Source: a virus. Taken from it: a stretch of DNA of 22,246 nt. Positions within the stretch are counted from its first letter, which is position 1. Each line of letters opens with the position of its first letter. The notes under the pieces were generated by a model, which was not told the origin of the DNA, searched no databases, and worked only from the letters and a program-made list of their open reading frames with translations. Where the stretch lies: IMG/VR virus record IMGVR_UViG_3300021335_000102, positions 1 through 22,246 of that record; one strand, written 5' to 3'. Position numbers and translations under genes: made by a program. Below, one piece after another: positions 2,867-9,689 of the stretch.

Positions 2867-2927
2867 CGTTCATTCCATTTGCTATTTGCGAATAACGAAT
2901 GGGACGCAAGTAAGCCGACTCGGAACG
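2867..2927 (+). promoter_or_regulatory. Glutamine-riboswitch-like aptamer (downstream-peptide / glnA type), copy 1
   Basis: The RNA begins at or within two bases of the promoter start. P1 pairs CGTTC (2867-2871) with GAACG (2923-2927). P2 pairs TCCATT (2874-2879) with AATGGG (2898-2903), continuing after a small interruption into TATT/AATA around a TGCG loop. The 3' segment GGGACGCAAGTAAGCCGACT (2901-2920) fits my memory of the conserved core of the glutamine riboswitches named glnA and Downstream-peptide, which occur in cyanobacteria and cyanophages upstream of short genes. A short gene does start 14 bases after P1. The fold is visible in the sequence; ligand identity is by family recognition only. 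Confidence 0.75.
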
Positions 2928-2930
2928 GAT

Positions 2931-3145
2931 CGTTCATCCTATGTTATCATTACTGTCTGTACTATTCATGCATGTCCCACAGGACATGTATCTCAGGTGT
3001 GAGGATTATGAGTGGTTAAAGGAGGGACTAGAGTCATCTACTCTTTTCACTCCTGCTGAGAAATCTGAGATTATCCTTAAATGGATTGAGCATACGGATC
3101 CTCACTGTTTTGATGACTAGGACGCAAAAGCCGACTGAAGGAACG
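2931..3145 (+). promoter_or_regulatory. Second glutamine-riboswitch-like element, interrupted by a gene (copy 2)
   Basis: Three bases after copy 1, CGTTC (2931-2935) appears again, followed by ATCCTATG. Its partner GAACG is at 3141-3145, 205 bases later, at the end of a core GGACGCAAAAGCCGACTGAA (3120-3139) that closely repeats copy 1's 3' segment. P2 would pair TCCTA (2937-2941) with TAGGA (3118-3122). The whole 59-codon gene 2941-3120 therefore sits in the P2 loop, its start A and its TAG stop being part of the stem. The element ends 35 bases before the DUF4278-like gene. Whether the two halves really fold together needs testing. Confidence 0.55.
2941..3120 (+). CDS. 59-aa protein nested inside riboswitch copy 2
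   Basis: ATG at 2941, TAG at 3118-3120. The product is a short acidic protein with a hydrophobic start (MLSLLSVLFMHV), a conserved-looking LRCEDYEWLKEGLE segment and an ending WIEHTDPHCFDD. I believe similar short proteins recur in cyanomyoviruses, from memory only. The ribosome site is poor: a GGA at 2927-2929 is 12 bases upstream and overlaps the end of aptamer P1, so aptamer folding could control access. This is the short peptide gene expected downstream of a Downstream-peptide-type riboswitch. No function is known, but a role linked to host nitrogen status is a natural guess. Confidence 0.7.
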   Translation: MLSLLSVLFMHVPQDMYLRCEDYEWLKEGLESSTLFTPAEKSEIILKWIEHTDPHCFDD

Positions 3146-3180
3146 GGTTTTAACTAACTCATTTCTTTAGGAGTAATCCA

Positions 3181-3312
3181 ATGTCTAAAGTCGTTTATCG
3201 TGGACAATCTTACGACACCGTAGAGCGTCGTGAGCAACAGCAACAACAGCAGCAACCTCAAGCATACAACGAAGCCTATCGTGGCATCAAGTTTGTTAAG
3301 GAGGCAAAATGA
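3181..3312 (+). CDS. DUF4278-like small protein with poly-Gln tract, 43 aa
   Basis: A strong AGGAG at 3169-3173 sits 7 bases before the ATG. The N-terminus VVYRGQSYD and the later AYRGIKF resemble the two YRG blocks of the cyanobacterial DUF4278 family (typically LTYRGVxY ... YRGxxW). Between them is a run of eight glutamines encoded by mixed CAA and CAG codons. The domain is common in cyanobacteria and cyanophages and has no known function. The gene lies just after riboswitch copy 2 and its TGA overlaps the next ATG. The family call is moderate because the protein is so short. Confidence 0.7.
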   Translation: MSKVVYRGQSYDTVERREQQQQQQQPQAYNEAYRGIKFVKEAK

Positions 3313-8717: not shown

Positions 8718-9653
8718 ATGTCATTCGCAAATCTCAAAAAGCAGTCCTCTCTGGGTTCCCTGACCTCCAAACTGGTCAAGGAAGTTGAGAAGATGAACAG
8801 CAATGGTGGTTCTGGAGATGATCGTCTCTGGAAGCCCGAAGTAGATAAAGCAGGTAACGGGTATGCTGTCGTCCGTTTCCTTCCTGCTCCCGAAGGGGAA
8901 GAACTGCCTTGGGCAAAGATGTACACCCATGCCTTCCAAGGTCCTGGTGGTTGGTACATCGAGAACTCTCTGACTACTCTTGGTCAGAAGGATCCTGTGT
9001 CTGAACTGAACTCCCAGCTGTGGAACAGTGGGGTTGATTCTGACAAGGAAGTGGCACGTAAGCAGAAACGCAAACTGTCCTACTACAGCAACATCTATGT
9101 TGTGAAGGATCCCACCAATCCTCACAATGAAGGCAAGGTGTTCCTGTTCAAGTATGGTAAGAAGATCTTCGACAAGATCATGTCTGCCATGCAACCTGAG
9201 TTTGAAGACGAAGATCCCATCAACCCCTTCGATTTCTGGCAGGGTGCGGACTTCAAGATCAAGATCAAGAAGGTTGCAGGATACTGGAACTATGACTCCA
9301 GTGAGTTTGCCCGTCCTGGCACTTTGGGTGATCTCGAAGACTCCGAACTGGAAGAGCTCTGGAAGAAAGAGTATTCTCTTGCAGAACTCACCGCTGCAGA
9401 CCAGTTCAAGTCTTACGATGATCTGAAGAAGCGTCTGGACTATGTTCTGGGTAACACTCCTTCTCGTCGTCGTGTGGATGAAGAAGTTGAGAACGAAGAT
9501 GATGACCGTGGTTCGTATACTCCTGACTTCGGTGCTCGTTCGAAACCCGTTCCCCAAGACCTGAAGGATGAACTTGCCTCTCTGAGTTCCTCTTCTAGCA
9601 GTGATGAAGAAGACGATACTCTGAGTTACTTCCAGAAGTTAGCAGAGTTCTGA
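8718..9653 (+). CDS. 32: gp32 single-stranded DNA-binding protein
   Basis: 311 residues. The N-terminal basic patch KKQSS at 7-11 resembles the T4 LAST motif (KRKST) for cooperative binding. The core follows T4 gp32 closely: GPGGWYIENS, SYYSNIYVVKDPTNP, EGKVFLFKYGKKIFDKI, FWQGADFKIKIKKVAGYWNYD. The C-terminal tail is acidic with a Ser run (SSSSSSDEEDD) that recruits other replication proteins in T4. The protein has no cysteine at all, so the T4 zinc site (one His, three Cys) is lost. Codons are noticeably richer in C/G-ending forms (AAG, CTG, TCC) than in the neighbouring baseplate genes, as expected for a highly expressed gene. A strong terminator follows. Confidence 0.96.
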   Translation: MSFANLKKQSSLGSLTSKLVKEVEKMNSNGGSGDDRLWKPEVDKAGNGYAVVRFLPAPEGEELPWAKMYTHAFQGPGGWYIENSLTTLGQKDPVSELNSQLWNSGVDSDKEVARKQKRKLSYYSNIYVVKDPTNPHNEGKVFLFKYGKKIFDKIMSAMQPEFEDEDPINPFDFWQGADFKIKIKKVAGYWNYDSSEFARPGTLGDLEDSELEELWKKEYSLAELTAADQFKSYDDLKKRLDYVLGNTPSRRRVDEEVENEDDDRGSYTPDFGARSKPVPQDLKDELASLSSSSSSDEEDDTLSYFQKLAEF

Positions 9654-9659
9654 TCATCG

Positions 9660-9689
9660 ATCCCCCTGAGAAATCAGGGGGATTTTTTT
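9660..9689. terminator. Bidirectional rho-independent terminator between gp32 and gp53
   Basis: ATCCCCCTGA (9660-9669) pairs perfectly with TCAGGGGGAT (9674-9683) around a GAAA tetraloop, followed by seven Ts on the plus strand. On the minus strand the same stem ends the gp53 message, followed by GATGATC rather than a T run, so it is weaker in that direction. The 3' arm encodes the last residues and TGA of gp53. Confidence 0.9.

Follow-up and report, generated by a model that had tools for sequence, protein, structure and literature searches.

The small gene at 2941-3120 of the window (the whole 22,246-nucleotide stretch of viral DNA analysed here) lies within a twin glutamine-riboswitch (glnA/type I) element at 2867-3145. 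We think it fairly probable that this element is a cyanophage glnA riboswitch interrupted by a protein gene around which it folds, and that it makes a glutamine-dependent choice between this nested gene and the gene downstream. The nested gene is in the P2b loop of an inner junction, which is itself in the P3 loop of an outer, canonical aptamer. This inner junction is a second, permuted three-way junction formed by a P1b hairpin, the gene-enclosing P2b stem, and a P3 shared with the outer aptamer. The features, in order along the window, are as follows.

2830-2858, +: promoter, sigma70-type, TTGACA and TATAAT spaced by 17 nt (direct reading)
2867-2871, +: P1a 5' strand CGUUC of the outer aptamer, pairing with 3141-3145 (swapped pairing in 268/268 elements; MFE fold of the window; RNAalifold)
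2873-2904, +: P2a, slot 1, a hairpin in the window and a whole gene in other phages (parsed elements; P-SSM4)
2905-2912, +: J2/3, CGCAAGUA, the AGUA side of loop E (RF01739 consensus CGGAAGUA except for one letter)
2913-2920, +: P3 5' strand (AGCCGACU), pairing with 3129-3136 across the gene (covariation between copies)
2923-2927, +: P1b 5' strand GAACG (pairs with the equivalents of 2931-2935 in 268/268 elements)
2928-2930, +: P1b triloop GAU (direct reading, compared with relatives)
2931-2935, +: P1b 3' strand CGUUC, pairing with 2923-2927 and not with 3141-3145 (swapped pairing)
2937-2941, +: P2b 5' strand UCCUA, reaching the A of the start codon (standard pairs in relatives taken without a filter)
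2941-3120, +: nested gene of 59 codons, phrog_13397, with a hydrophobic N-terminus and two cysteines (profile match; dN/dS; AlphaFold2)
3118-3122, +: P2b 3' strand UAGGA, which includes the UAG stop in the lineage of the window (direct reading; pairing in relatives)
3123-3128, +: inner junction strand CGCAAA, a shortened J2/3-like strand (direct reading; parsed elements)
3129-3136, +: P3 3' strand (AGCCGACU) (covariation between copies)
3137-3140, +: J3/1 GAAG, the GAA side of loop E (direct reading; T[GA]A counts in relatives)
3141-3145, +: P1a 3' strand GAACG of the outer aptamer (swapped pairing; MFE; RNAalifold)
3169-3312, +: downstream gene, with an AGGAG Shine-Dalgarno sequence at 3169-3173 and the ORF at 3181-3312 (phrog_5049 match; DUF4278-like YRG protein)

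A preliminary description of this DNA had reported riboswitch-like halves on either side of a 59-codon ORF. Direct reading confirms the letters (CGTTCATCCTATG at 2931 and TAGGACGCAAAAGCCGACTGAAGGAACG at 3118-3145, with CGTTCATCCT filling 2931-2940, the ATG at 2941, TAG at 3118-3120, and GGACGCAAAAGCCGACTGAAGGAACG running to 3145), and the bracket recurs in cyanophage relatives. That description did not include the full-looking upstream unit at 2867-2927, which is an essential part of the element. The phrog_13397 gene was found with the same bracket, which is nearly always present, in 41 phage records and 69 IMG/VR loci, and the bracket surrounds other small genes at hundreds more loci. As the bracket recurs in this way around an ORF, the co-occurrence of its two halves is not a matter of chance. 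The motif joining the two units is present in 414 phage records, mostly of Synechococcus phages, at one place in each, and carriers of the element include P-SSM4, P-HM2, S-SSM7, S-RSM4, and S-RIM8. A scan for host occurrence among about 85,000 genomes gave 8 matches, at least one of them by chance (L487), and most of the others look like phage contigs inside bacterial assemblies. A Nonlabens assembly and a Prochlorococcus assembly each include a contig (L488 and L491, 188-189 kb) that carries parts of the element, is of cyanomyovirus size, and is probably phage DNA. At locus L076, a divergent phrog_13397 gene (3001-3183) has no riboswitch flanks at all, and the protein is therefore not confined to the RNA slot.

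The promoter position predicts that transcription begins at about 2865, coinciding with the outer aptamer's first base, and the distance from the end of the -10 box to CGTT is 7-8 nt in 193 relatives. At many loci (e.g., L003, L018, L028, and L122) the -10 box lies within a perfect dyad (GGTCTATAATAGACC, GGTATAATAACC) just 5' of the aptamer, which may bind a regulator or mark a class of phage promoter. Elsewhere in the window, a weak NsiR1-like match at 9640-9689 consists of a G+C hairpin and a T run directly after ORF 8718-9653 and is probably an intrinsic terminator between convergent genes.

Swapped pairing and the outer aptamer core

Each element has four P1 strands, which we named 5'1, 3'1, 5'2, and 3'2. 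They were compared in 268 distinct full elements, extracted by a parser from among the matches listed from pattern scans. The parser required 3-4 P2 pairs and four of the five P1 letters; as a check on circularity, the evidence on P1 was taken solely from the fifth P1 base, which was left free. The strands read CGTTC/GAACG/CGTTC/GAACG in 226 of the 268 elements listed, CGTTC/CAACG/CGTTG/GAACG in 34, CGTTT/CAACG/CGTTG/AAACG in 7, and CGTTC/AAACG/CGTTT/GAACG in 1. The swapped P1s, i.e., 3'1 with 5'2 and 5'1 with 3'2, are intact in all 268 and show compensatory changes: P1a becomes CGUUU:AAACG in 7 elements, and one P1b pair is seen as G-C, C-G, and A-U among the elements listed. Pairing each copy with itself breaks P1 in 42/268 (copy 1) and 41/268 (copy 2, with one more surviving as U-G). 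When the columns of the distinct rows were shuffled, the self P1s fell at the shuffle mean and the inner swapped P1 stood above every shuffle (1.000 versus at most 0.955). These P1 variants span different P3 types and different nested genes and therefore do not represent one clone. The MFE folds contain the outer P1 in 248 of the 268 elements listed and self P1s in 5.

The preliminary description had paired 2931-2935 with 3141-3145, which is the copy 2 self pairing and is not supported. With the swapped P1s intact, the gene does occupy a P2-type loop of a riboswitch-like RNA, as had been proposed, but not the P2 loop of a self-standing second aptamer, a candidate that we rejected on P1 covariation and that the compensatory swaps contradict. 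The enclosure of the complete gene by UCCUA/UAGGA fared better. Because the parser itself called for P2 pairs, the P2b test was repeated without any pairing filter, and 874 of the 884 cells around the gene were standard-paired, compared with 0.34-0.70 when the strands were slid by 1-3 nt. As such, the comparison of 2931-2941 with 3118-3145 in relatives that had been suggested bears out the P2 strands, which covary, and not the P1.

P3 pairs across the gene, between one copy and the other. In the window, six of its eight pairs are standard and two are A.C oppositions, which recur at fixed places in relatives. The covarying types include AGUCG/CGACU, GGACGG/CCGCCC, AAUCU/AGAUU, GGAAGG/CCUUCC, and AAUCG/CGAUU, and for each of the five scored pairs there are elements in which both bases differ (36 double changes). 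Given no structure, RNAalifold returned the outer P1, P2a, P3, the P1b hairpin, and P2b from three alignments, one hairpin/hairpin and two gene-bearing; P3 was only partly formed in two of the three, and P2b closed the gene in both gene-bearing sets. Judged by covariation, helices P1a, P1b, P2, and P3 are thus genuine parts of the fold. A degenerate relic, with the halves paired to copy 1, had also been considered; the idea of pairing with copy 1 was right, but the element is conserved and covarying. A relic or degenerate copy is ruled out by the covariation of P1, P2, and P3 together with a start and stop locked to the RNA.

The same swap brings the conserved core together. The glnA riboswitch has a loop E motif (PMC6698751), whose AGUA side is found in copy 1 only and whose GAAG side is found in copy 2 only; the two flank P3 only with swapped strands. 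J2/3 is one letter off consensus in the window (C for G), and J3/1 is AAAG in 47 of the 268 elements listed. Apart from that letter, only the swapped outer unit has the complete J2/3 and J3/1 core flanking P3, with its AGUA...GAAG loop-E bases; no full core is present in the inner junction. Since the only complete core is the outer one, the aptamer draws on RNA from before and after the gene. Its P1, CGUUC:GAACG, closes the three-way junction at 2867-2871:3141-3145 and covaries in relatives, as the RF01739 family would have it. Crystallography of glnA shows glutamine in contact with C1:G59, with C58 of the adjacent G2:C58 pair, and with G22 (PMC6698751). Their counterparts here fall at roughly 2867-2868 and 3144-3145 and within or beside 2904-2912, which places them on opposite sides of the gene. 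The glnA P3 moves upon ligand binding (PMC6806525), and P3 in this element is the link to the gene-bearing junction.

Database scores are low throughout. The RF01739 glutamine riboswitch model matches the window at 2865-2931 with 23.9 bits, and relatives reach at most 33.5, all under the gathering threshold of 35. Such scores are expected if the model, being that of a contiguous aptamer, cannot span the gene, although this does not in itself prove membership; given a contiguous model, we file the element as a variant and not as a plain member.

Gene slots, nested proteins, and the downstream gene

Both P2 loops act as slots, each occupied by a hairpin or by a gene. The four possible P2a/P2b combinations were all found, in numbers that count the matches listed and are not natural frequencies: hairpin/gene at least 143, hairpin/hairpin at least 58, gene/gene at least 34, and gene/hairpin at least 33. 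P-SSM4 (L492), for instance, has a gene in slot 1.

Genes in slot 2 keep a fixed relationship to the RNA. Their ATG is at one fixed offset from the 5' half in 171 of the 177 gene-bearing elements listed (one of the offset counts takes in minor stop variants). Their stop codon usually occupies a constant place within J3/1 (CGAC-UGA-AGG, or UAA), and among the elements listed T[GA]A is present at J3/1 in 174/177 with a gene versus 17/91 with a hairpin. The preliminary description had the A of the start codon and the entire TAG stop taking part in P2, which is true of the window; a stop within P2b is a minority trait, and most relatives read on to UGA or UAA in J3/1. The close relative L011, with AAG in place of the TAG of the window, reads on to UGA. 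The P1b triloop is GAG in most relatives with a slot-2 gene, producing a GGAG Shine-Dalgarno sequence 10 nt before the nested AUG. Among the elements listed, this loop is found in 132/177 with a slot-2 gene versus 2/91 without one (Fisher p ~1e-33), and the association also holds within the GGTCG type of P3 (5/5 versus 0/7). The window is of the AGCCG type with a GAU loop and hence does not have the clear GGAG of most relatives.

The insert is coding, to judge from its phrog membership, frame conservation, and purifying selection. The nested ORF matches the phrog_13397 profile over its full length (E 4.4e-30, residues 1-59), the median dN/dS is 0.21 for phrog_13397 and 0.35 for phrog_504-like genes, and most variation is at third codon positions. 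Among the 162 distinct slot-2 proteins listed, which belong to phrog_13397, phrog_504, and phrog_6471, every one has exactly two cysteines, 31-40 residues apart, and the N-terminus is hydrophobic on average. AlphaFold2 models the nested protein as a helical hairpin (mean pLDDT 85), for which a fold search against the PDB gave no match better than E 4.7, and a Pfam search of the nested proteins found no family. We infer that they are small exported or membrane-anchored proteins with a disulfide. Across all loci, slot-1 and slot-2 proteins are very divergent, yet they share a common length and a hydrophobic start, with two cysteines in all those of slot 2. The nested proteins are probably one superfamily spread over phrog_504, phrog_13397, and phrog_6471.

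The downstream ORF at 3181-3312 matches phrog_5049 (E 3e-10) and, below the Pfam cut-off, DUF4278 (E 0.015). The same YRG start is seen in the downstream genes of L078, L492, and others. Genes with DUF4278 are associated with the glutamine riboswitch and are its usual type of target (PMC6316151). In a subset of elements (L003, L122, L186, L217, and L359), the outer P1 is closely followed on its 3' side by a further conserved hairpin, ACGGATCC-NNN-GAAA-NNN-GAGAAGGTTAA, which precedes the Shine-Dalgarno sequence of the downstream gene.

Proposed mechanism and rival readings

The promoter position, the fold, the gene, the locking of its frame, and the Shine-Dalgarno association are established by these comparisons, and on them we base the following model. 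The ligand pocket would be made of bases before and after the gene and would therefore close only on RNA free of ribosomes. In the closed state, the nested start region would be held in P1b/P2b and the end of the gene in P2b or J3/1, and with both inside the fold the nested gene would be shut. The downstream DUF4278-type gene would at the same time be opened, as in known glutamine ON switches; ON-switch behaviour is established for the glutamine-II riboswitch, and the IF17 gene, which bears DUF4278, is under type I control (PMC6698751, PMC6316151). At low glutamine, ribosomes on the nested gene would hold the aptamer open and its halves apart. Under this model, the nested gene could be translated or the aptamer folded, but not both at once, and the RNA would choose between two small proteins according to glutamine. 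We entertain tentatively a more elaborate form, a two-site interlocked sensor in which both junctions bind glutamine across the shared P3 and the ribosome on the enclosed gene is part of the switch. In that form, the RNA would decide whether the downstream protein or the small exported protein(s) encoded inside it are made, and the P2 loops would be interchangeable gene slots.

A rather unlikely reading, which keeps the same fold, is that the element senses no glutamine and is a ribosome-operated or protein-bound mRNA structure timing translation of the small genes, e.g., early versus late in infection. Glutamine binding is predicted, the inner junction has no full core, and J3/1 and J2/3 depart from consensus in places, all of which would suit such a structure. 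The outer core nevertheless keeps the glnA letters of P1, J1-2, J2-3, and J3-1, and the downstream genes include DUF4278-like proteins. It is improbable that the flanks owe their conservation chiefly to a role as homologous DNA through which phages exchange small genes, so that the locus would be a cassette slot and its RNA structure of secondary importance. The slots do hold varied genes of one protein type, in four combinations and between near-identical flanks, but DNA homology favours identity over pairing, so the compensatory changes in P1, P2, and P3 would be unexpected, and the Shine-Dalgarno sequence and stop codon track slot content. Very improbable, finally, is the model of the preliminary description, two self-standing tandem aptamers of which the second has a gene in its own P2 loop. 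The presence of CGUUC...GAACG in each copy speaks for it, as do weak whole-model Rfam matches on copy 1 alone. Against it, the copy 2 P1 does not rise above shuffles and is so often broken, copy 1 has no J3/1 GAAG and copy 2 no AGUA, leaving neither with a full loop E, and P3 covaries between the copies.

Relation to known RNAs

The glnA and Downstream-peptide motifs were described by Weinberg et al. (2010), who noted tandem glnA RNAs (PMC2864571). Cyanophage papers list the glutamine riboswitch without a gene-in-loop arrangement, and a literature search that covered few subscription papers turned up no case of a riboswitch loop that contains a gene. To our knowledge, no riboswitch described so far builds its aptamer from stretches flanking a complete gene or uses its loops as places for genes. 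The arrangement, found in hundreds of genomes of phages of ocean cyanobacteria, appears to be undescribed. If it works as we propose, it would link translation of one gene directly to metabolite control of the next. The arrangement also accounts for the tandem-looking glutamine riboswitches of cyanophage genomes, offers a reason for sub-threshold Rfam scores, and reveals a large family of phage proteins, with two cysteines each, encoded inside these riboswitches. As isolated, well-studied phages (P-SSM4, P-HM2, S-RSM4, and S-RIM8) carry the element, the model is directly testable.

With the glnA/type I family (RF01739), the element shares P1 CGUUC/GAACG, a P2 that follows directly after one A, J2/3 CG-AAGUA, P3, J3/1 GAAG, the loop-E letters, the three-way junction, and a putatively DUF4278-like downstream gene. 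It differs in that its P3 loop is expanded to take in another junction together with an entire gene, a coding sequence separates the two aptamer halves, and two interlocked units share P3. The Downstream-peptide (glutamine-II) motif, RF01704, is alike in the CGUUCAUCC...GGACGCA P2 region, the GGAACGG letters, and an associated small ORF, and it gives sub-threshold matches on copy 1 in several relatives. RF01704 has a pseudoknot and a peptide gene downstream, whereas the element has a swapped P1, needs no pseudoknot, and has its gene inside. In the cmscan alignments, several pairs of the 3' hairpin, in whose loop the P1 strand would lie in that pseudoknot, are non-standard, and it is the swapped nested helices that covary instead. 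Tandem riboswitches, such as glnA tandems and those for glycine, likewise have two aptamer-like units in a row, but the units of the element are interdependent, exchanging P1 strands and sharing P3. Group I and group II introns are catalytic RNAs with homing or maturase genes in their loops and so resemble the element in placing a protein gene in the loop of a structured RNA. In contrast, the host RNA here is a ligand aptamer, and its genes encode tiny two-cysteine proteins, with a stop codon that usually lies in the aptamer core.
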